Below, one piece after another: positions 885 through 11,797 of a stretch of 61,271 nucleotides of DNA. Each line of letters starts with the position of its first letter. The first letter of the stretch is position 1. Below the pieces are notes generated by a model. That model worked only from the letters and a program-made list of their open reading frames with translations. It did not search any database and had not been told where the DNA came from. Source of the DNA: a virus; IMG/VR virus record IMGVR_UViG_3300032083_000576, positions 1-61,271 of that record, one strand, 5' to 3'. Both the position numbers and the translations under genes were made by a program.

Positions 885-2774
885 ATGCCCTTACAAAAAT
901 ACATTTTTCGACCAGGAGTTAACAAAGAAGGAACTGACTATTCTAACGAGGGTGGTTGGTTTAATTCAAACCTTGTTCGATTTCGCAAAGGTCTTCCTGA
1001 AAAAATAGGTGGATGGGCAAAAGCTACTTTAAGTACATATCAATCCACAGTTAGAGCTCTTCATGCTTGGGTAGATTTATCTTTAACAAGATATTTAGGT
1101 TTAGGTGCTACATGGAAGTATTACATAAAAGAAGGAGATAACTTTTATGATATTACTCCTCTTCGAGAAACCACGTCTGCAGGCGATGTTACATTTGCAG
1201 CAACTAACGGCAGTTCAACTATTACAATTACAGACACAAACCACGGCGCAGTAACTGATGATTTTGTTACGTTTAGTGGCGCTGCTAGTTTAGGTGGGAC
1301 TGTAACCGCGACAGTTTTAAATCAAGAATATCAAATACTTTTAGTTACAGGTGTTAGTACTTATACGATTACAGCTAAAGATACTTCTGGCGCAACAGTA
1401 ACAGCTAACGGTAGCGATAGTGGTAACGGCGGAAGTTCTGTCGTAGGGGCATACCAAATTAACGTAGGACTAGATACTTATGTGGAGTCTACAGGGTGGG
1501 GAGCAGGAACTTGGGGAGCAGGAACTTGGGGCTCAGCAACAGCGATTACAGCTTCTAATCAATTACGTCTATGGTCTCATGATAATTTTGGAGAAGACCT
1601 AGTTATGAATGTACGAGCAGGTGGGGTTTTTTATTACGACATAAGTACAGCTACATTAGGAACCACTAGAGCAATACCTTTAACAAGTTTATCAGGAGCA
1701 AATCTAACACCTACGGTAGCATTACAAGTTTTAGTCAGTGACGTGGATAGACACGTTGTTTGTTTTGGCGCTGATCCAATATCAGGAAGCTCGCGATCAG
1801 GGGCAGTAGATCCTTTATTTATAGCTTGGAGCGACCAAGAAAACGTTTCTGAATGGGAGCCTTTACCAACCAATACCGCAGGTTCTTTTAGATTGTCCGC
1901 AGGATCTCAAATTATTGGAGCACTTCGAGCTAGACAAGAAACTTTAATTTGGACAGATACTGCATTGTATTCAATGACTTTTGTGGGTCAACCTTTTACA
2001 TTTGGTGTAAATTTAGTAAATGAAGGGGTTGGGTTAATATCCCCTAATGGAGCAGTTAATACTCCTAAAGGTGTTTATTGGATGGATAAAAAAGGATTTT
2101 ATACGTATTCAGGTTCTGTTCAAGATATTCCCTGTACTGTTCAGGATTATGTTTTTAGTGATTTTAATGAAGGACAAGCTTTTCAATCATTTGCCTTTGT
2201 AAATAAAGAATTCGACGAAGTAGGATGGTTTTATTGTTCCTCAAGTTCTTCGGTTATAGATAAATATGTAGTTTTTAATTATGAAGACGGAGTTTGGACT
2301 ATAGGAGATTTAACCAGAAGCTCTTGGTTAGATGAGGGAATATTTAACACCCCAATGGCTACGTATAGCACGAATGATGTGGGGTATTTATATAACCATG
2401 AAACAGGTAATGACGATGATGGTTCTCCTATGGACAATGTGTTTATAGAATCTAGTGATTTTGATTTAGGGGAAGGAGAAGAGTTTCAATCGATAAAAAG
2501 AATTATTCCTGATATAAAATTCACAGGAAGTGGAGGCACAGGTCAAACCATTAACATGGTAGTTAAAACTAGAAATTTTCCTGCAGAAAGTTTATCAACA
2601 TCTACAACAAGCGCCTGCACCAGTAGTACTTCTAAAATTGATACTAGAATTAGAGCTCGCCAAGCAGTGCTAAGAATCGAATCAGATGACGATAATAGCG
2701 AAGGAGCAAGGTTAGGAGTAGGTTTTAGAATAGGTGCTACAAGAATGGATGTACAACCTAACGGCAGACGTTAA
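885..2774 (+). CDS. Large tail / DNA-stabilisation type structural protein
   Basis: 629 residues. The N-terminal signature around residues 8-35 (RPGVNKEGTDYSNEGGW, then NLVRFRKGLPEKIGGW) is typical of a widespread marine-phage structural protein that I relate to P22 gp10-like packaged-DNA stabilisation and tail proteins. Residues about 98-185 form a Thr/Ser/Gly-rich insertion that looks like a beta-sandwich domain, and a WGAGTWGAGTWG repeat follows. The C-terminal part ends in basic residues. The gene overlaps the next gene by one base. The structural role is secure by context; the exact position in the tail is inferred. Confidence 0.75.
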   Translation: MPLQKYIFRPGVNKEGTDYSNEGGWFNSNLVRFRKGLPEKIGGWAKATLSTYQSTVRALHAWVDLSLTRYLGLGATWKYYIKEGDNFYDITPLRETTSAGDVTFAATNGSSTITITDTNHGAVTDDFVTFSGAASLGGTVTATVLNQEYQILLVTGVSTYTITAKDTSGATVTANGSDSGNGGSSVVGAYQINVGLDTYVESTGWGAGTWGAGTWGSATAITASNQLRLWSHDNFGEDLVMNVRAGGVFYYDISTATLGTTRAIPLTSLSGANLTPTVALQVLVSDVDRHVVCFGADPISGSSRSGAVDPLFIAWSDQENVSEWEPLPTNTAGSFRLSAGSQIIGALRARQETLIWTDTALYSMTFVGQPFTFGVNLVNEGVGLISPNGAVNTPKGVYWMDKKGFYTYSGSVQDIPCTVQDYVFSDFNEGQAFQSFAFVNKEFDEVGWFYCSSSSSVIDKYVVFNYEDGVWTIGDLTRSSWLDEGIFNTPMATYSTNDVGYLYNHETGNDDDGSPMDNVFIESSDFDLGEGEEFQSIKRIIPDIKFTGSGGTGQTINMVVKTRNFPAESLSTSTTSACTSSTSKIDTRIRARQAVLRIESDDDNSEGARLGVGFRIGATRMDVQPNGRR

Positions 2775-3097
2775 TGGCTAAAATATTAGAAACAAAACTT
2801 CCTATAGCTATAGGGGAAATATCCCCAGAAACATTTAATAGACTCGTTAGAGTTTTAGAACTTAGTTTAAACAAAGTCGATATAGGTGCAACACCTACGT
2901 TTAATGAAACACAACGTAATGAAAATAAATTCGAAGACGGGGATTTAATTTGGAATATAGAAACAGAACAATTACAATTATGGAACGGTCTTAAATGGGT
3001 AGATATCTATACAGGAACCGAACAAGGGGTAGAAGGCGTTGCTTTTCTTGGAGAAATTACGGTTTCAACAAACGGAGCGACAACAATATCATTGTGA
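2774..3097 (+). CDS. Small virion protein
   Basis: 107 residues, translationally coupled to genes on both sides (TAATG and TGATG overlaps). The middle has the pattern FEDGDLIWNIETEQLQLWNG, seen in small phage fibre or structural proteins that carry a WNG turn; the end is Thr/Ser-rich beta-type sequence. It lies between the large tail protein and the lysozyme. No enzymatic motif is visible. Confidence 0.65.
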   Translation: MAKILETKLPIAIGEISPETFNRLVRVLELSLNKVDIGATPTFNETQRNENKFEDGDLIWNIETEQLQLWNGLKWVDIYTGTEQGVEGVAFLGEITVSTNGATTISL

Positions 3098-3540
3098 TGA
3101 ATAAAGATAAATTAATAGAAGAATTAATCAAAGACGAAGGATATAAATACGAAATATATCTAGACCACCTTGGCTACCCCACATTCGGAGTAGGTCATTT
3201 AATTTTAGAAAAAGATGAAGAATATGGAAAGCCTGTTGGTACTCCTGTTTCAGAAGAAAGAATTAAAGAATGTCTTAGTAATGATATTGAAATAATTTGT
3301 AATGAATTAAATAGAAATATGGAATGGTGGCAGGATCTAAACGATACCAGACAACGTGTGTTGGCTAATATGGCATTTAATTTAGGATTACCTAGATTAA
3401 GTAAGTTTGTTAAATTCTTAAAAGCTGTTCAAGATTCAGATTGGGAAAAAGCTTCAGAAGAAATGATGGACTCTAAATGGGCGACCCAAGTAGGGGATAG
3501 AGCAAAAAGATTAAAAATAAAAATGTTAAAAGGAGTGTAA
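3097..3540 (+). CDS. T4-type lysozyme (GH24 endolysin)
   Basis: A 147-residue muramidase that would cleave the MurNAc-GlcNAc bond of peptidoglycan during lysis. The E-D-T catalytic triad pattern of T4 lysozyme is visible as Glu14, Asp23 and Thr29 within DEGYKYEIYLDHLGYPTFGV, followed by a conserved Gly-His. The C-terminal half has the MAFNLGLPRLSKF helix typical of the family. Length matches T4 lysozyme. The start at 3097 overlaps the upstream stop; an upstream in-frame extension to 2995 would add a basic tail with no homology and is rejected. There is no signal peptide, so export needs a holin. Confidence 0.93.
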   Translation: MNKDKLIEELIKDEGYKYEIYLDHLGYPTFGVGHLILEKDEEYGKPVGTPVSEERIKECLSNDIEIICNELNRNMEWWQDLNDTRQRVLANMAFNLGLPRLSKFVKFLKAVQDSDWEKASEEMMDSKWATQVGDRAKRLKIKMLKGV

Positions 3541-3714
3541 ATGAAGGGTGTAACGCATTACAAAAGAGACGGGAGACCCTATAAAGGGGGTACTCATAAA
3601 ATGCCTAACGGAACTTTACATTCAGGGAAATCTCATGGCAAAACAAGTGAGAGATTATATCATTTTAAAGATTTAAGTAAAAAAGCTAAATTAAAAGTAA
3701 AAGGAAAAAAATAA
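3541..3714 (+). CDS. Basic 57-residue protein
   Basis: A Lys/His/Gly-rich, strongly basic protein starting at the ATG directly after the lysozyme stop and ending in an overlap with the next ATG. The N-terminal part carries THYKRDGRPYKGGTHKMPNG. Together with the two following basic proteins it forms a trio of small nucleic-acid-binding-type proteins. Possible roles are DNA condensation or minor virion components; this is inferred from charge only. Confidence 0.65.
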   Translation: MKGVTHYKRDGRPYKGGTHKMPNGTLHSGKSHGKTSERLYHFKDLSKKAKLKVKGKK

Positions 3715-3896
3715 TGCCAAGTAAAAAAACACATAAAACTAAAGACGGCAGAACAGCTAAAAAAGGTCTTTATTACTATATAAATAAAAAGAAAGCAGAA
3801 GGCAGGAAGCCACGTAAAAAAGGAGCTAAAGGTGCTCCGACTGCTGCTGCTTTTAAACGTTCAGCTAAAACAGCTAAAAAACCTAAAAAGAAATAA
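3714..3896 (+). CDS. Lys-rich 60-residue protein
   Basis: Very basic, with a Lys/Ala/Gly-rich C-terminus (AKTAKKPKKK) and a short Tyr cluster (GLYYYINKKK). Histone-tail-like composition suggests nucleic-acid binding. It is overlapped by one base with both neighbours in the operon. No named family is assigned. Confidence 0.7.
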   Translation: MPSKKTHKTKDGRTAKKGLYYYINKKKAEGRKPRKKGAKGAPTAAAFKRSAKTAKKPKKK

Positions 3897-4195
3897 TGGC
3901 TACTAAGCGCAAAGAAAAGTCTATACGACGCACTACGAAAGGAAAAGGTGCTAATTACCGTAAGACTAAATCTGGCGCGGGAATGACGGCTAAGGGTGTA
4001 AAAGCCTATAGGAAGAAAAATCCTGGATCTAAACTTAAAACAGCTGTTACAGGTAAAGTTAAAAAAGGTAGTAAAGCCGCAAAAAGAAGAAAATCTTATT
4101 GTGCAAGGTCAGCGGGACAAATGAAGAAGTTCCCTAAAGCCGCCAAAAATCCTAATTCTAGGTTGAGACAAGCAAGAAAGAGATGGAAATGTTAA
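3896..4195 (+). CDS. Basic Cys-containing phage protein, DUF6321-like
   Basis: 99 residues, extremely basic. The pattern SGAGMTAKGVKAYRKKNPGS, then KLKTAVTGKV, then a Lys-rich stretch, a Cys-Ala-Arg segment and a terminal RKRWKC resembles a small conserved family of marine-phage proteins (DUF6321-like, from memory). Two conserved-looking Cys residues near the end could bind metal or form a disulfide. A DNA- or RNA-binding role is inferred from charge. Confidence 0.75.
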   Translation: MATKRKEKSIRRTTKGKGANYRKTKSGAGMTAKGVKAYRKKNPGSKLKTAVTGKVKKGSKAAKRRKSYCARSAGQMKKFPKAAKNPNSRLRQARKRWKC

Positions 4196-4196
4196 T

Positions 4197-4625
4197 ATGT
4201 ATGAATATAGTTGCACAGTTGAAAGAGTGGTTGATGGAGATACTATCGACGTTGTGTTGGATCTTGGGTTTGATATTATGTATAAGTCTCGTGTTAGGTT
4301 ATATGGGATTGATACTCCCGAGTCACGTACTCGTGACCTGGATGAAAAGGCTAGAGGAAAAATGGCTGGGGCTTTCTTAAAAGCTGCTATTGAAAAAGGT
4401 ACTAAAGTTGTTATACAAACTGAAGTAAAAGATTCAAAAGGTAAGTATGGAAGAGTTTTAGGAAACGTTGTGGTTGACGGAGTTAATATAAATAAAAAGA
4501 TGATAGAAAGTCATTTAGCTGTTGCTTATTTTGGACAATCTAAAAACGACGTAGAAGAAGAACATTTAGTTAATAGAAATAAATTAATTGAATTAGGTAA
4601 ATTTAATCCTCAGGAGTTGTTATGA
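4197..4625 (+). CDS. Staphylococcal nuclease-like (SNase/TNase) protein
   Basis: 142 residues spanning one SNase OB-fold domain. Visible active-site elements are VVDGDTIDV (metal Asp), RVRLYGIDTPES (catalytic Arg, Asp-Thr and Glu) and KYGRVLG (second Arg). These match the Asp21/Arg35/Asp40/Glu43/Arg87 set of the family, so it is probably active on DNA or RNA with Ca2+. It has no signal peptide and is therefore likely cytoplasmic. The start at 4197 follows the upstream stop. An overlapping reading frame at 4183-4380 is a shadow. Roles could include host-nucleic-acid degradation. Confidence 0.88.
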   Translation: MYEYSCTVERVVDGDTIDVVLDLGFDIMYKSRVRLYGIDTPESRTRDLDEKARGKMAGAFLKAAIEKGTKVVIQTEVKDSKGKYGRVLGNVVVDGVNINKKMIESHLAVAYFGQSKNDVEEEHLVNRNKLIELGKFNPQELL

Positions 4626-5098
4626 AAATAGGTGGAATATTAAAAAGTGTGGTCGGAGCGGTAGCTCCTACCCTAGGTACTGCACTAGGTGGTCCAATGG
4701 GCGGTATGGCGGCTAAAATGATTTCAGAAGTATTGGGTGTTCCTAATACTCCTAAAGCGATAGATAAAGCAATACAAGAAGCCACTCCCGAACAACTTCT
4801 CGAACTTAAAAAAGCAGAACAAGCATTTGAAATTCAAATGAAAGAGCTTAAAGTAGATGTTTTTAAGTTAGAAACAGCAGATATACAAGATGCAAGAGGT
4901 AAATTTTCTAAAGATTGGACAGCCAGAATCATGGGTATAGTTGTTGTGGGCGGTTTTATGGGCTACATATTTTTAGTCACCATCCAGCCTCCTGAGCAAA
5001 ACTCAGAGGCATTGATAAACCTTGTTCTAGGCTACCTTGGTGGTTTAGCTTCTGCGATTATAAGTTTTTATTTTGGAGCGTCTCAGAAACAAGACTAA
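4622..5098 (+). CDS. Holin of the 3-TM superfamily type
   Basis: 158 residues with a Gly/Ala-rich amphipathic N-terminus, a charged helical middle (residues ~55-95) and two clear membrane helices, around IMGIVVVGGFMGYIFLV and the region ending ASAIISFYFGASQK. The FYFGAS ending is characteristic of the Holin_3TM group. It overlaps the nuclease stop and the next ATG. It would form inner-membrane lesions that release the lysozyme encoded 1.1 kb upstream. Confidence 0.75.
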   Translation: MKIGGILKSVVGAVAPTLGTALGGPMGGMAAKMISEVLGVPNTPKAIDKAIQEATPEQLLELKKAEQAFEIQMKELKVDVFKLETADIQDARGKFSKDWTARIMGIVVVGGFMGYIFLVTIQPPEQNSEALINLVLGYLGGLASAIISFYFGASQKQD

Positions 5099-5448
5099 TG
5101 GATCAAGCAGTAACATTTATAAACGAAGTTGGTTTTCCTATTGCAGCAGCACTAGGTTTAGGTTTCTTTATATGGAAACTTATCAATAGAATTATTGATG
5201 GTATGGAAACAAAGTTAGATGTACTAGACGAAAAAGTTGCAGTACAAATAGCAGCAATGGAAGAAAGGCTAGGGGGCAAACTAGATTCACAACATGGTAT
5301 TTTAGTAGCTTTGATAGATAGAATAAGATCTCTTGATAATGAAATTATTAGGCAAGATACTATGATCAAAACAATCCTAGGAGTTCCTAATCTTATAGAT
5401 ATAGATAAAATCGCTAAAGCGGATAGAGACGACCAACGTAAAGATTGA
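5098..5448 (+). CDS. Membrane-anchored coiled-coil protein, holin/BhlA-like
   Basis: 116 residues: a hydrophobic helix at about residues 10-31 (FPIAAALGLGFFIWKLI), then a long heptad-rich region, then a charged C-terminus. The topology resembles BhlA/UviB-type holin-like proteins. It sits directly between the 3-TM holin and csgF, sharing overlapping stops and starts with both. A role as second holin or lysis accessory is likely but unproven. Confidence 0.7.
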   Translation: MDQAVTFINEVGFPIAAALGLGFFIWKLINRIIDGMETKLDVLDEKVAVQIAAMEERLGGKLDSQHGILVALIDRIRSLDNEIIRQDTMIKTILGVPNLIDIDKIAKADRDDQRKD

Positions 5449-5915
5449 TGAACAAACATGATAATCTTTTTGCAATAATAGGTTTATCTATAGTATTACT
5501 TGTAGTAGTTCTACAACAAGTACAGGCTGATGAAATGGTACATCAGTTTAAAAGTCCTTCTTTTAACGGAGAAGGAACTTCTAGTCATTATTTAACTATA
5601 GAAAACCAAGAAGCTAATCGCAAACAAGCTATAGAAGAAGAAATACAGGCTCTTAAAGACGAAATAGAAAGAGAAGAAAATAACACAGTGGAAGCTAGGT
5701 TTATGCGCAACCTTACTTCACGAATTTATGCAAACATTGCTAGGCAAGTAGAGGCTGCATTGTTTGGAGAAGATACAAACAAAAGTGGATCTATGGAACT
5801 TGATGGAAACACGATAGATTATGAGATTACGGAAGAGGAGGTTAGAGTTACAATCACTGATGAAGACGGCAATACAACAGAAGTTATCGTACCTATTGGT
5901 GGTTTTACTTTCTAG
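5448..5915 (+). CDS. csgF: CsgF-like curli assembly factor
   Basis: 155 residues. Residues ~1-28 are a signal peptide (hydrophobic IIGLSIVLLVVVL, then a VQA cleavage site). The mature N-terminus HQFKSPSFNG followed by Ser-His-Tyr-Leu matches the CsgF segment that plugs into the CsgG channel (compare FRNPNFGGNP in E. coli). The rest keeps the CsgF order: a helical RFMRNLTSRIYANIARQVEAA region, then NTIDYEI and VRVTITDEDGN beta strands ending in a VPIGGF segment. It should be secreted and cap the CsgG pore. The ATG overlaps the upstream stop; a TTG one codon earlier is less likely. The csgG start lies inside its 3' end. Confidence 0.87.
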   Translation: MNKHDNLFAIIGLSIVLLVVVLQQVQADEMVHQFKSPSFNGEGTSSHYLTIENQEANRKQAIEEEIQALKDEIEREENNTVEARFMRNLTSRIYANIARQVEAALFGEDTNKSGSMELDGNTIDYEITEEEVRVTITDEDGNTTEVIVPIGGFTF

Positions 5916-6660
5916 TTGTGCTTTGATGATTGATCCGCTAGAAAATAATTTACCACCAATCAAGCATATACAACCTGCTTCGATTGAGAAACTATACACT
6001 GCTTTAGCGGATGTCGAAGAGCCTTCTAGGAAACCAGTTATTTCCGTATATGCTAATGATTTTAAAGATCAAACAGGACAACGTAGATCGAATGCTAAAT
6101 ATGCAACTTTTGCTACAGCAATTACACAAGCACCGCATGCATACCTTATACGAGCACTTAAACACTCTGGGTTTTTTGAAGTAGTCGAACGAGTCGCTCT
6201 TGAATCAGTTAGTAAAGAAAGACAACTAATTCGTTCAACTCGAGAAACGTTTGACGAAAAACAAAAACTCTTACCCCTCAAATTTGGCGATATGATTATG
6301 ACAGGTGGAGTGTTATCGTATCAAGCAAATATAAGTTCTGGAGGAGCAGGGGCTAGAAATTTAGGAATAGGTTTTTCTAAACAATATAGAGAAGATATAA
6401 TTACTATTAGTTTACGAACGGTCTCAGTAAGTACGGGCAGAGTCCTTACTGAAGTGTTGGTTACTAAAACTGTTTTATCAGCTTCTTTAGATAGTGATGT
6501 TTTTAGATTTATAAGTCAGGGAACAGAGCTTATAGAGATAGAAGGAGGAAATGTTAGGAACGAGCCGATGAGCGTAGCTTTACAAATAGCTATCGAAACA
6601 GCTGTGTTAGAAACAATTAAAGAGGGTTTAGATAAAAATTATTGGAGGTTAATACAATGA
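5860..6660 (+). CDS. csgG: CsgG-like outer-membrane curli secretion channel
   Basis: About 266 residues. Starting at 5860 gives a lipoprotein signal whose lipobox LSSC places the lipidated Cys at residue 20. Family signatures follow: ISVYANDFKDQTGQRR, a LIRALKHSGFFEVVER stretch, RQLIRSTRE, SSGGAGARNLGIG, a TISLRTVSVSTGRVL segment, a FRFI box and a NEP followed by an IETAV helix. These align along the whole length of E. coli CsgG, which forms a nine-fold outer-membrane pore. The first 56 bases overlap csgF in another frame. An upstream in-frame start at 5821 would put charged residues before the signal and is rejected. Confidence 0.93.
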   Translation: MKTAIQQKLSYLLVVLLSSCALMIDPLENNLPPIKHIQPASIEKLYTALADVEEPSRKPVISVYANDFKDQTGQRRSNAKYATFATAITQAPHAYLIRALKHSGFFEVVERVALESVSKERQLIRSTRETFDEKQKLLPLKFGDMIMTGGVLSYQANISSGGAGARNLGIGFSKQYREDIITISLRTVSVSTGRVLTEVLVTKTVLSASLDSDVFRFISQGTELIEIEGGNVRNEPMSVALQIAIETAVLETIKEGLDKNYWRLIQ

Positions 6661-7370
6661 AAAAATATCTATTTATACTTATATTTTGTGCACCTATTTA
6701 CGGAGCAGATAACGAAATATTCATTGATCAAAGTTCAGGAGCATCTAATTCTAATATAGATTTAGAACAGTTAGGTTCTGGTAATATTATCGGAGGAGCC
6801 ACTGCAGCAGCAGGTTCTATGACTGATTTAAATTTAGTAGGGACAGCACTTAATTTAGATATAAATCAGATTGGCGATACAAACAAGTTTTTGGGTGATA
6901 TTGTTTCAGATTCATATACAGGGTTTTTTGAGTTTGATGGCAACAGTAATACTTTTAATATGAACACCGATAAAACAGCAACTTACGGAGCAGATTCATC
7001 AAATGTTAATGTAGACGTGACTGGAAACAGTAATACATTTACTTTAAATCAAGCCACTTCTGCCTTAGCCAGTACATTAGACTTGGATTGGATTATCAAT
7101 GGTTCTAGTAACACAATCACATCTTCGATCAATGTGGATGCTGCTACAAACTATGTCAACATAGACGGATCAGATAATGCTTTAACACATACAGCCACTG
7201 GTTATGCGGGTAATTACTTTTACCTAGACCACGACGGGGCTAATAGAACATTTAACATCACACAATCATCAACATTAGATAATGACTGGCTCAAAATACT
7301 TAGTTCTGGTACTAGCACTTCTACTGTCTGCGTCATTCAAAACGACCAAGGCACAGGCACAAGCTGTTGA
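6657..7370 (+). CDS. Curlin-like secreted repeat protein (candidate CsgG substrate)
   Basis: 237 residues. GGAGG at 6644-6648 sets the ATG at 6657, giving a signal peptide ending near IYG-ADN. The mature protein is Asn/Ser/Thr/Gly-rich with degenerate curlin-like repeats: LEQLGSGNIIGG, INQIGDTNKFLGD, FDGNSNTFNMN, VTGNSNTFTLNQ, INGSSNTITSS and IDGSDNALTHT. The Gln-x-Gly-x-x-Asn and Gly-x-Ser-Asn-Thr core resembles CsgA/CsgB repeats. Two Cys bracket the C-terminal VIQNDQGTGTS. It overlaps the csgG end by four bases. An amyloid-forming or nucleating substrate is inferred; the repeats are looser than in true CsgA. Confidence 0.72.
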   Translation: MKKYLFILIFCAPIYGADNEIFIDQSSGASNSNIDLEQLGSGNIIGGATAAAGSMTDLNLVGTALNLDINQIGDTNKFLGDIVSDSYTGFFEFDGNSNTFNMNTDKTATYGADSSNVNVDVTGNSNTFTLNQATSALASTLDLDWIINGSSNTITSSINVDAATNYVNIDGSDNALTHTATGYAGNYFYLDHDGANRTFNITQSSTLDNDWLKILSSGTSTSTVCVIQNDQGTGTSC

Positions 7371-8400
7371 TATAGGAAGTATCAGTGAGCTAAAAGGTAA
7401 TGCTCAGGTTGTACGAGACAAGCCGTATGGCGCAGAACTATCGTTTCCTATCCAGCAAATGGATAATGTCAAAACAGAAACTGGTCGAGTCGCGATTACG
7501 TTTGCTGACGATACGATTGTTCGCGTTATGGATCATAGTAGGTTAGTTATAGATACATATATTTATGATCCTAATCCTAAAAAATCTGAGATGGCTCTTA
7601 GGTTTGCTAGTGGAACAGCAAGATTCGTAACAGGTAAATTTAATAATAAAAAGAATATAAAAATCAGTACTCCTAGTGCTGATGTGTTTGTTAGAGGCAC
7701 AGATTTTACAATTACAACAACTCCAGAAACAGGCGCTTCTTTAGTTATTTTATTGCCCGACGAGTACGGAGAATCTAGTGGGGAGATAGTTGTCGCCACA
7801 GCTATGGGGCAAGTTGTATTAAACCAACCGTATCAAGCTACAACAGCTATGACCTATAATCAAGCCCCTTCTAAACCTGTGACGTTAGATATAAGTTTAG
7901 AGTTTATAGATAACATGTTAATAGTAAACTCTCCTAATGAAAAAGATAATATAGAAGAAGAATCACAAACAGGTACTACAGCAGATTATTTAGATTTTAA
8001 TGATTTAGATGTAGATTTTTTAGCAGAAGATTTTTTAGATAACGAAGCTGATTTAACATTTACAGAACTAGATATAAATTATCTTGACGTAAACTTTCTT
8101 GAAGACTTACTTAATATACTTGATGCTTTAGCCGTAGGAGCTGAAGAAGATCAATTAAATCAAATTGCGACTGGAATAAAAATAACAGGTACACAAATAG
8201 GTCAGGACAAAGTAAGCCAAATAACAACAATTATTACAGGACAACTTATTAGTTTTAGACGAAGCGTAGGAGAAACAGTACGAATAGACCTTGACGGATC
8301 AAGTTCTTATACCTTAGTTTTGTTACAAAATGGTGTAGAAAATATAATAAAAGTTAACGGTGGTTCTTCAAATACTATAAACATAAAACAAGGAAACTGA
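7282..8400 (+). CDS. Exported FecR-domain protein
   Basis: 372 residues with a signal peptide (YLVLVLALLLSAS, cleavage near AQA). A FecR-type beta domain spans about residues 30-150, with TETGRVAITFADDTIVRVMD, LRFASGTARFVTG and STPSADVFVRGTDF. After it come an Asp/Leu-rich low-complexity segment at ~230-285 (repeated DFNDLDVDFL-type units) and a C-terminus ending NGGSSNTINIKQGN that again resembles a curlin repeat. It is likely periplasmic. Its first 89 bases overlap the upstream gene out of frame and its last base overlaps the cyclase start. In bacteria FecR-domain proteins are often encoded next to CHASE2 cyclases, so it may feed a signal to that sensor. Confidence 0.85.
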   Translation: MTGSKYLVLVLALLLSASFKTTKAQAQAVDIGSISELKGNAQVVRDKPYGAELSFPIQQMDNVKTETGRVAITFADDTIVRVMDHSRLVIDTYIYDPNPKKSEMALRFASGTARFVTGKFNNKKNIKISTPSADVFVRGTDFTITTTPETGASLVILLPDEYGESSGEIVVATAMGQVVLNQPYQATTAMTYNQAPSKPVTLDISLEFIDNMLIVNSPNEKDNIEEESQTGTTADYLDFNDLDVDFLAEDFLDNEADLTFTELDINYLDVNFLEDLLNILDALAVGAEEDQLNQIATGIKITGTQIGQDKVSQITTIITGQLISFRRSVGETVRIDLDGSSSYTLVLLQNGVENIIKVNGGSSNTINIKQGN

Positions 8401-10154
8401 TGAAGAAAATAGTTTTTACAATTTTATTTATAGTTTTACTTTTTCCGTTAGCGTTTCAAACAACTCCGTTAGAAGTATTAAAACTAAAAACATTTGATGC
8501 TTTTCTTCCTAAACAACAACCTTCTGGTTATTTTACAATTTTAAATATTACAGAAGAAGACATAACAAACGAGGGGGGATATCCTTTATCCAGACAGACC
8601 TTAGCACAAATACAAATTAACTTATTACGGAAAGGTGCGATAGGTGTCGGGTGGGTTGTTGCTTTTCCACAACCCGATAGATTCGGAGGAGATTTCGAAT
8701 TTATGGAAGCGCTAGGTTTTGCTCCTAGTGTGTTAGCTATGTATGAAAACGATACAGATAATTACCCACCGACCACAGGGACAGTAATTTTAGGAGAAAA
8801 TATCGGGGGGATAGAAGCTCAAGGAGTGGTACAAAACATAGACGTCTTAAAACAAAATGCGTCTCAAGGAATTGCAGTAGCTAGACCTGAAGTTGATTCT
8901 TTAGTTCGTAGATTACCTTTGTTATTAAGAACTCCTGATGGATTCGTGCCAGCTTTTGGAACAGAAGTTTTAAAAATATTAGCTGGAGCAGATACCTATG
9001 TTATTAAAACAAACGAAAATGGTTTAGAAGAAATAAGAGTAAAAGGTTTACCTTCTGTTCCTGTAGATTCTTACGGTAGAAAATGGGTAAGTTGGGTAGA
9101 TACCCCACAGACCACGTTACAAGAAATGAACGTAGAAAATAAGTTTGTTTTTGTGGGGTTTACTGCTAAAGGAATTATGCCCCAGTTAAGTACCCCTGTT
9201 GGCTATCTTGAGCCTCATAAAATACAAACCGCATTAGCCGAAAGTATTCTTATAGAAAATAGTCCATACGTACCTGATTATGCTTTAGCTGTAGAGCTTC
9301 TTATCTTTTCTGTAGTTATAAGCTTAATCTGGTTAGTTTTAAACGTATTCGGAATAACCTCTGGAATAGTATTAGCTACCCTTATTTCTTTCTTAACTGC
9401 GTTTTCTGGGCTTTATTTAATAAAAAACGGGTTATTAATAGACGTAACATGGACATTAATAGCTGGAATCTTAACAGGGACAACAGCTTTTTATATAAAC
9501 TATCGGACACAATTTAAATTACGTCAACAGATTAAAAAACAATTTGAACATTATTTAGATCCTCGCCAAGTAAAACAACTACAAAACAATCCTGAGTTAT
9601 TAAAATTAGGAGGTGAAAAAAGGTACTGTACCTTTCTGTTCACAGATGTAAGGGGATTTACAGCTATGAGCGAAAGTATGCCTCCAGAAGAAGTTACTAT
9701 AATTATGAATAAAGCATTGACTATTCAACAAAAAGTTGTACAAAAACATGGGGGCATGGTGGATAAATATATAGGCGATGCAATGATGGCTATCTTTAAC
9801 GCACCGTTAGATTTAGAAAACCATGCACATAAAGCAGTTCTTGCTGCTATAGAGATACAACAACTTATAAAAGAAGAAAATATTGGAATAGAAATCGGAG
9901 TTGGATTAAATACAGGTGACGCTGTTATTGGCAACATGGGCAGTGACACTCGTTTCGATTACACCGCTATTGGCGACGCTGTAAACACTGCGGCTAGAAT
10001 GGAGAGTAGTTGTAAGGAAGTAGGAGAAGATATAGTGATTACGGAAAACACAGCATCACAAACTCAAATAGAACTTAGACCATTAAAACCTATAAAAGTT
10101 AAGGGGAAAGAAAAAACAATTAATATATACACAGTCAATGATCTTGAAGTATAA
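8400..10154 (+). CDS. CHASE2-domain class III adenylate cyclase
   Basis: 584 residues: an N-terminal membrane anchor (1-20), an extracytoplasmic CHASE2 sensor (~25-290), three membrane helices (~295-315, 320-342, 347-367) and a cytoplasmic class III cyclase domain (~405-580). Catalytic features are complete: metal Asp416 (FTDVRGF) and Asp460 (DKYIGDAMMA), purine-selecting Lys456 and Thr522 (FDYTAIGD), and transition-state Asn529 and Arg533 (NTAAR). The Lys/Thr pair favours ATP, so cAMP is the expected product. It is the last gene of the csg cassette. Its full length and intact residues argue that it is active. Base specificity is not proven from sequence. Confidence 0.9.
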   Translation: MKKIVFTILFIVLLFPLAFQTTPLEVLKLKTFDAFLPKQQPSGYFTILNITEEDITNEGGYPLSRQTLAQIQINLLRKGAIGVGWVVAFPQPDRFGGDFEFMEALGFAPSVLAMYENDTDNYPPTTGTVILGENIGGIEAQGVVQNIDVLKQNASQGIAVARPEVDSLVRRLPLLLRTPDGFVPAFGTEVLKILAGADTYVIKTNENGLEEIRVKGLPSVPVDSYGRKWVSWVDTPQTTLQEMNVENKFVFVGFTAKGIMPQLSTPVGYLEPHKIQTALAESILIENSPYVPDYALAVELLIFSVVISLIWLVLNVFGITSGIVLATLISFLTAFSGLYLIKNGLLIDVTWTLIAGILTGTTAFYINYRTQFKLRQQIKKQFEHYLDPRQVKQLQNNPELLKLGGEKRYCTFLFTDVRGFTAMSESMPPEEVTIIMNKALTIQQKVVQKHGGMVDKYIGDAMMAIFNAPLDLENHAHKAVLAAIEIQQLIKEENIGIEIGVGLNTGDAVIGNMGSDTRFDYTAIGDAVNTAARMESSCKEVGEDIVITENTASQTQIELRPLKPIKVKGKEKTINIYTVNDLEV

Positions 10155-10229
10155 TCATTTTATCAGTTCTTTACTGCAGCCTTCGGGAACGGCTTTATCC
10201 GCTAATAATGAATAAAATAAGGAAGGGGA

Positions 10230-10724
10230 ATGAGTAATTTTTTTGTAGTGGGATTACCTAGAAGCCGTACAGCTTGGTTGGCTAATTTCTTAACATACGA
10301 AAATAAATTCTGCTTTCACGAAGGCATCAACGGTTGTTCTACCCTAAAAGAATACAAAAACAAACTTGGGGACAATAAAGGAGACAGTTGTACTGCGTTA
10401 ATGTTATTAAATTTAAACAAAGAATTCCCTGAAGCTCCTGTAGTTGTTATTGAAACAGATACAAAAAGAGCTATAGAATTTTCTAAAGAAATTTACGGTA
10501 AAGACTTAACTCAAGAGATGAATGTATTAAATGAACAAATGAAGTTTATAAAAGGATTAAGGATAAGGTTAGAAAATTTAGATAATTCTCTTGAAGAAAT
10601 ATGGACATATTTAATCGGAACCTCGTACAATAAAGAAAGAGGGGATTTATTAAAAAATATGAACATCCAAACAAATAATTTTAATTACGACATAAAAGCT
10701 GCAGGAGAATTGTTATGCCGATAA
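10230..10724 (+). CDS. Sulfotransferase-like P-loop protein
   Basis: 164 residues. The N-terminus FVVGLPRSRTAWLANFL has the 5'-phosphosulfate-binding loop signature of sulfotransferases (PRSRT followed by hydrophobics). The rest is short compared with typical sulfotransferases (>250 residues) and the 3'-phosphate-binding motif is not obvious, so it may be a reduced or diverged member. It has its own GGAAGGGG ribosome binding site and overlaps the next gene. Modification of a surface glycan or virion component is a guess. Confidence 0.6.
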   Translation: MSNFFVVGLPRSRTAWLANFLTYENKFCFHEGINGCSTLKEYKNKLGDNKGDSCTALMLLNLNKEFPEAPVVVIETDTKRAIEFSKEIYGKDLTQEMNVLNEQMKFIKGLRIRLENLDNSLEEIWTYLIGTSYNKERGDLLKNMNIQTNNFNYDIKAAGELLCR

Positions 10725-11797
10725 CTGCTGCATTAATAGCGGGAGGAAGTGCTATTCTTGGGAACCTAGTAGCTCCTGAACCCAAAGGCTCTAGTGGTGG
10801 GGTTTCTTCGTCAACTCAATCAGGAAACTCAGGATTAAATTATACACCTGTGGGATTAGAATCTTTAGAAATTACTCCTTTCGAATACAAACTTTTAAAC
10901 GAGATGTTTAAAGAACAACAAGAACCCCAAGAAATGATGTACGGTGGTCCTTTATATGCAAAAGGTGGGGGCGATTTAAATAAAGCACTTTTAGGGGCGG
11001 CAGGTTTAAGTATGATTCCAGGAACATTAGGAGATTTTGGAAGAACACTTTCAGGAGGATTAACTTCTATGGAGGAACAAGAGCCTAAAGGATTAATTTC
11101 TTTATTATTTGAACATTTTACTAAAGATGATGAAGAAGACGATAAAGAAGAATCTATCGTTCCTGGTCTACAAAACGGTGGTCCGCTATATTTAGCAGAA
11201 GGTGATGATATTTATAGACAAGAAGTAATAGCGCAAAGACCTGAAGGAATTATGTCTGTTGATAATGACATAGAACCAGACTTAAATATACCTGATCCTA
11301 AACCCACCGTTACAGATTTTAAAAAAGAATTAGACGACATGCTTAGACGTCAATTAATGCAAGATATAGTAATGAACGAAATACCTGATCTTGTTTCTGT
11401 ACTTATGTCGAATAGAAATCAAAAAGCTAATGTTAGTGGCAGAGGAAACATAGTTCCAGGAAGTGGACGTGGAAGTGGGAGATCTATATCTAATCAAGAT
11501 TTTAGAGTCGCAGGAACTACTGTGAATCCTTTCTCCTATAGAAGATTAAAAAACGGTGGTACAATGGTAGATGGAGTATTAGATAGACCTATGTTTGCGG
11601 CAAATTATATGCCTAACGGAGGGGAGATGGAAGGTCCAGGTGGTCCAAAAGACGATTTAATACCTGTGATGGCTAGTAATGGAGAGTTTATGTTATCTAA
11701 AGCAGCAGTTGATCAAGCAGGTGGCGGCAATCATTCTGAAGGAATTGCGATGTTAGAAGCTTTTAACGAATTAGGGAATCAAAGATATGGCAGATAG
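10715..11797 (+). CDS. Virion protein with NGG motifs and tape-measure-like C-terminus
   Basis: 360 residues with a hydrophobic N-terminal ITAALIAGGSAILGNLVA. Repeated short motifs appear (MYGGPLYAKGGG, QNGGPLYLAEG, KNGGTMV, MPNGGEMEGPGGP). The C-terminal KDDLIPVMASNGEFMLSKAA is a motif also seen at the ends of phage tape-measure or internal virion proteins. It is the first of six consecutive virion genes and overlaps the next start. An internal/ejection protein is the likely role. Confidence 0.65.
   Translation: MPITAALIAGGSAILGNLVAPEPKGSSGGVSSSTQSGNSGLNYTPVGLESLEITPFEYKLLNEMFKEQQEPQEMMYGGPLYAKGGGDLNKALLGAAGLSMIPGTLGDFGRTLSGGLTSMEEQEPKGLISLLFEHFTKDDEEDDKEESIVPGLQNGGPLYLAEGDDIYRQEVIAQRPEGIMSVDNDIEPDLNIPDPKPTVTDFKKELDDMLRRQLMQDIVMNEIPDLVSVLMSNRNQKANVSGRGNIVPGSGRGSGRSISNQDFRVAGTTVNPFSYRRLKNGGTMVDGVLDRPMFAANYMPNGGEMEGPGGPKDDLIPVMASNGEFMLSKAAVDQAGGGNHSEGIAMLEAFNELGNQRYGR

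Follow-up and report, generated by a model that had tools for sequence, protein, structure and literature searches.

A FecR-domain protein and a CHASE2 adenylate cyclase as a candidate envelope sensor of phage-borne curli secretion

Why would a phage carry a full-length membrane adenylate cyclase, and what would read its signal? The question is raised by an IMG/VR virus record of 61,271 bases without a terminal repeat. The whole stretch is called the window here. It encodes a terminase, portal, capsid, DNA polymerase and primase, which confirms its phage origin. Going by the sequences of its terminase, capsid and DNA polymerase, which are closest to the HTVC023P-type group, the phage is a member of that group. 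These proteins are 57, 76 and 55% identical to those of 023Pt_psg01, 53, 67 and 49% to those of HTVC027P, and 51, 70 and 50% to those of HTVC023P. The lake phage DSL-LC04 is about equally close (59, 74 and 48%). Since all three proteins group with these phages, a SAR11 host is likely, judging from the relatives.

An earlier note missed the genomic context of the cyclase. The gene does not stand alone but closes a module of curli genes and FecR. The features of this region are:

4622..5098, + strand: probable holin of the 3-TM type, 158 aa (phrog_1544, function unknown, E 1.4e-26; weak holin match)
5098..5448, + strand: small protein of 116 aa, one membrane helix then a probable coiled coil (no kinase profile match)
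5445..5915, + strand: CsgF (Pfam CsgF, E 1.5e-19)
5821..6660, + strand: CsgG, the curli outer-membrane secretion pore (Pfam CsgG, E 7.7e-49)
6642..7370, + strand: curlin-like repeat protein, CsgA/B-like (repeats visible in the translation)
7282..8400, + strand: secreted FecR-domain protein, 372 aa (Pfam FecR, E 1.9e-11; AlphaFold2 model)
8400..10154, + strand: CHASE2 adenylate cyclase, 584 aa (Pfam, residues, AlphaFold2 model, comparison with solved structures)

The genes from the 116-aa protein to the cyclase form a co-directional run, 5' to 3', in which neighbours overlap one another. CsgF and CsgG share up to 95 bases (5821-5915), and the same overlap is seen again in relatives. CsgG has the lipobox LSSC and may truly start at the in-frame Met at codon 14. 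The curlin-like gene probably starts at the ATG at 6657. Its product is 27% identical to the 'curlin minor subunit CsgB' of HTVC008M and matches NCBIfam CsgA weakly (E 0.03). The final 89 bases of the curlin-like gene (7282-7370) also code, in a different frame, for the signal peptide of the FecR protein, an overlap that recurs in many relatives (e.g. L004, L009 and L010). A scan of 2700-11000 gave 33 promoter-like sites where 28 were expected and 4 terminators where 4.2 were expected, figures too close to chance to be informative. On the 3' side of the cyclase, the product of 10230-10724 begins with a GLPRSRTAW motif like that of sulfotransferases. Its match to Pfam Sulfotransfer_3 has an E of only 0.14, and a PHROG 'hydrolase' matches at E 9e-11.

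This gene set is already known. Wittmers et al. 2022 (PMC9599517) described a curli (T8SS) module including the cyclase in HTVC023P-type pelagiphages and inferred an alphaproteobacterial origin for it. They also found it in pelagimyophages, noted that not every curli-bearing pelagiphage has the cyclase, and reported that the module genes are expressed in the sea. The window has CsgF, CsgG, FecR and the cyclase adjacent in the published order, with the curlin repeat protein between CsgG and FecR. It comes from the same phage group and, like the published module, has no CsgE. It differs in having one curlin-like gene and no second, and in having no detectable histidine kinase. HTVC008M and Melnitz carry the same module with the cyclase annotated. 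Their CHASE2 cyclases are 33% and 32% identical to that of the window over 95% of the protein, but they are myophages and have an extra gene between FecR and the cyclase (curlin-associated in Melnitz).

The cyclase is widespread beyond these genomes. At least 596 stretches of IMG/VR hold relatives of it, and the best 80 were fetched. FecR lies upstream of the cyclase in 73 of these best 80, and the 7 remaining contigs stop within 1.1 kb of the cyclase on that side. CsgG is present in 48 of the 80; in the other 32, no more than about 2.4 kb of sequence is available upstream. The earlier note called a phage-encoded cyclase of this kind unusual. That description is not supported, because homologues abound in IMG/VR, HTVC008M and Melnitz have them and the module has been published. 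The same homologues mean that the refutation named in the note, a lack of relatives in other phages, does not apply. The window is one further instance. Some contigs of MAGs titled Pelagibacter, Neomarinimicrobiota, Maricaulis, Flavobacteriaceae and Saprospirales also carry the phage-type module or cyclase (L084-L089 and L093). We rejected these as bacterial sources; several are cut by contig ends, and they are probably misbinned phage contigs.

It must be noted that a histidine kinase was reported as the gene preceding the pelagiphage module (PMC9599517). The gene at that place in the window, matched to the published one by position only, codes for the 116-aa protein with one helix and a coiled coil. 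Relatives of this protein precede CsgF in HTVC008M and Melnitz. HATPase_c is absent from the window and from 9 other module-bearing phage records, HTVC008M and Melnitz included, whereas 14 of 14 control genomes were positive. The published histidine kinase finds no support in these records. Because that label is itself doubtful, we keep the window in the published module and narrow the claim to CsgF-CsgG-curlin-FecR-cyclase. Small membrane/coiled-coil proteins related to the HTVC008M and Melnitz genes that precede CsgF occur in two other loci (L090:7724-8300 and L091:11857-12400). In L090 and L091 two such genes lie directly 3' of the cyclase, and no curli gene was detected nearby.

Is the cyclase a working enzyme? 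The frame at 8400-10154 is open and intact. CHASE2 (PF05226) spans residues 12-307 (E 2.4e-23) and Guanylate_cyc (PF00211) spans residues 409-579 (E 5.9e-23), so the full-length CHASE2 membrane cyclase of the earlier note is confirmed in a phage genome. The six catalytic residues it had named are in place as well: the metal-binding pair Asp416 and Asp460, the adenine-selecting pair Lys456 and Thr522, and the transition-state residues Asn529 and Arg533. Together with the PF00211 match they mark a class III adenylate cyclase. We aligned 83 phage rows, made up of the best 80 of the at least 596 IMG/VR loci plus the window, HTVC008M and Melnitz. D416, D460, K456 and R533 are invariant (83/83), N529 is kept in 82, and position 522 is T in 64 rows, S in 18 and D in 1, the three residues that can join Lys in the adenine-selecting pair. 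In Melnitz, T522 is replaced by D and N529 by S. Frameshift or decay is ruled out, since the frame is intact in all of the best 80 loci except 2 cut by contig ends. Comparison of the window with 5 relatives gives a dN/dS of 0.04-0.13, with the larger distances near saturation at silent sites, and the gene is under purifying selection. Among solved structures the catalytic domain is nearest to P. aeruginosa CyaB (3r5g) and Cya2 (2w01), and the enzymes it most resembles are bacterial cyclases, CyaB and CyaC among them. By homology the enzyme is very likely active, and cAMP made from ATP would be its product.

The protein runs from TM1 through a periplasmic CHASE2 domain, TM2-4 and a signalling helix to the class III catalytic domain. 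This is the known layout of CHASE2 cyclases, with one membrane helix ahead of the extracytoplasmic domain and three behind it. The AlphaFold2 model (23-row alignment, mean pLDDT 88.7) has helices at 2-18 before the CHASE2 fold and at 295-316, 318-342 and 350-382 after it. The earlier note counted three membrane helices. That number holds for the part after CHASE2, but the model predicts four in total.

If the cyclase is an output, the next question is what it senses. The FecR protein is a candidate. Its stop codon overlaps the cyclase start as TGATG. It has a signal peptide, a FecR domain, a disordered acidic linker and a C-terminal beta region that ends in a curlin-like tail, NGGSxxTITIxQ. 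A sequence search of the protein against solved structures gave no match. Its AlphaFold2 model has an overall pLDDT of 64.5 and resembles the cell-surface (periplasmic) signalling domain of PupR with a Z of 15.9 over 140 residues; a cell-surface anchoring domain matches less strongly (Z 6.9). A curlin fold for the C-terminal beta region was considered, and the model confidence there is too low for such a claim. In the published module this FecR is labelled an iron-dependent regulator (Wittmers et al. 2022). A FecIRA system has an N-terminal anti-sigma domain, one TM and an ECF sigma factor as neighbour. Here the N-terminus is a signal peptide, and no sigma factor was found among the 10 ORFs scanned from 3896 to 10724. 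The iron label is a misfit because the protein has a signal peptide, lacks an anti-sigma domain and has a PupR-like domain. It looks like the cyclase's envelope partner rather than an iron regulator.

Bacterial cyclases provide another line of reasoning. We sampled 142 genomes of the class to which a Maricaulis MAG belongs and examined their best 60 CHASE2 matches. FecR was located by a six-frame profile search, as reading the directly upstream gene is unreliable in GC-rich DNA. Of the 60 alphaproteobacterial CHASE2 regions fetched, 25 contain a FecR-domain frame, against about 0.4 expected (a roughly 63-fold excess). The expectation comes from the FecR density of 20 genomes partly chosen for FecR near CHASE2, which inflates it rather than deflates it. 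Some of these FecR genes are several kb off or on the opposite strand. CsgF and CsgG were not detected in any of the 60 regions. In Campylobacterota, the genes of CHASE2 cyclases are grouped with one for an outer-membrane protein that has a FecR domain (PMC9239204), and a Burkholderia biofilm operon has a LysM-FecR protein and a CHASE2-kinase (PMC5192318). Given this enrichment, the lack of detectable CsgF and CsgG and the two published cases, FecR looks like the older partner of the cyclase and curli like an addition on the phage side. The CHASE2 adenylate cyclases of S. meliloti (CyaD1/D2/K) and Campylobacterota have the same architecture and often FecR neighbours; bacterial CHASE2 cyclases are longer, mostly about 740-770 aa against 584 aa here. 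Those of S. meliloti respond via the outer-membrane protein NsrA, and the cAMP signal is read by the CRP-family regulator Clr (PMC13001267). FecR-domain frames near bacterial CHASE2 genes or in the same genomes reach about 900 to 4,100 aa (L194, L191, L195, L146; G255:C11, G255:C12), suggesting surface adhesins with a FecR-domain head.

In our tree the phage rows cluster together with an SH-aLRT of 99 and fall among the CHASE2 cyclases of Alphaproteobacteria, although support is weak for many inner branches and rooting was at the midpoint only. It agrees with the alphaproteobacterial origin inferred by Wittmers et al.

In our reading, FecR and the CHASE2 cyclase would make up an envelope sensor that is coupled to the curli secretion brought by the phage and alters cAMP; we give this a probability of roughly 55%. 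The cyclase would be an active class III adenylate cyclase and the cytoplasmic output of a two-protein sensor, with the secreted FecR-domain protein coded immediately upstream as its partner. The pair would be expressed together with the curli exporter CsgG/CsgF and the curlin-like protein. CHASE2 would sense the state of FecR or curlin in the periplasm or at the CsgG pore. The signal would pass through TM2-4 and the signalling helix and alter the cyclase dimer, and cAMP would rise or fall during curli secretion. This reading draws its support from the conserved residues, dN/dS, the FecR gene upstream in most loci, the TGATG overlap, the bacterial FecR-CHASE2 linkage and the PupR-like fold. 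It is weakened by loose pairing of FecR and cyclase, by the distant or opposite-strand position of some alphaproteobacterial FecR genes, and by the scarcity of cNMP-binding proteins described below, with none in the phages and few in the presumed host family. A gene is inserted between FecR and the cyclase in 17 of 73 loci, and FecR identity falls to 46% on average while that of the cyclase is 68%. Since FecR is the more diverged and a gene can separate the two, they are not strictly inherited together and the specificity of the pairing is not tight.

The next question is what would read the cAMP. The earlier note suggested that the cyclase could raise cAMP and thereby switch on the host CRP regulon. 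This has something to recommend it, as E. coli csgD is driven by cAMP-CRP (noted by Wittmers et al., PMC9599517). The host of the window is also deduced from relatives, so a CRP-bearing host is possible. Against it stands a survey of 147 genomes from the family of a Pelagibacter MAG, for which genome completeness was not reported. The cNMP-binding domain (PF00027) is absent in 138 of them, and incompleteness cannot account for so many negatives. The longest frame was read at 5 of the 9 positive genomes. Two of these look like FNR and bear a Cys cluster at the N-terminus, one locus has a PAS-rich protein beside the match, one has an ABC transporter and one a multidomain enzyme. The scores of the other 4 resemble that of the multidomain enzyme. 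The family is also nearly devoid of class III cyclases of its own: they were found in 3 of the 147 genomes, where one is on a phage-type contig and one is below the family cut-off. Because the domain is missing in nearly all of these genomes and none of the exceptions that were read resembles cAMP-CRP, activation of CRP is poorly supported for a SAR11 host and we consider it unlikely. If the host is SAR11, the cAMP receptor is probably something other than a CRP-type protein. Three genomes of the family (L102, L104 and L105) have a protein of about 870 aa in which cNMP-binding domains are joined to apparent acyltransferase and hydrolase parts. In this minority of SAR11-family genomes it may bind cAMP.

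One can also imagine that the phage supplies the full cAMP arm from periplasm to cytoplasm to a host with neither cyclase nor CRP-type receptor. The reader would then be an unrecognised host or phage protein, such as the small membrane/coiled-coil proteins of the module. No cNMP-binding domain was found in 17 phage records (the window and 16 others, with the complete HTVC008M and Melnitz included). We offer this extension of the sensor reading tentatively.

Another scenario is that the module times or assists lysis, akin to the pinholin idea for Melnitz CsgG; a lysis-timing role was proposed for Melnitz CsgG/F (Buchholz et al., PMC9004378). In the window the module directly follows endolysin-like and probable holin genes. 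The architecture of the 4622-5098 product, judged by eye, resembles the 'Holin of 3TMs' of DSL-LC04, and this gene probably belongs to the lysis set rather than to the curli module. However, the holin-like gene does not keep its place, since relatives have it either ahead of CsgF or behind the cyclase, and the annotated neighbours of the module in myophages are not lysis genes. We know of no link between a cyclase and lysis. A role in lysis is improbable.

The cyclase could instead be cargo, carried with the curli genes and with no present role in infection. Its partly independent inheritance from FecR and the Csg genes fits this, as does its absence from some curli-bearing pelagiphages (PMC9599517). 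Cargo does not explain intact frames, low dN/dS and nearly invariant catalytic residues, nor the expression of module genes in the sea (PMC9599517), and we find it very improbable. Least probable of all is counter-defence, in which the cyclic nucleotide disturbs Pycsar/CBASS-type signalling: the earlier note had raised it, but there is no positive evidence for it, since the matches to PADLOC PycC models (best E 4.4e-29) reflect a shared class III catalytic fold and are far weaker than those to solved bacterial adenylyl cyclases such as CyaB (E 7.1e-50), the window has no cNMP-binding domain and no recognised effector gene near the cyclase where Pycsar has an adjacent cNMP-sensing effector (the neighbours are curli genes), and the CHASE2 membrane sensor and the curli linkage would be left unexplained.

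The analysis sharpens three points on an abundant marine phage module: the role of FecR, the unsupported histidine kinase and the missing known reader of cAMP. A conserved and selected cyclase would be signalling while known cAMP receptors are missing from most of the presumed SAR11 host family. If the phage does supply the full arm, curli secretion would have a private cAMP signalling loop. Finding what reads this cAMP would either uncover a new cAMP receptor or help to explain the presence of curli in these phages.
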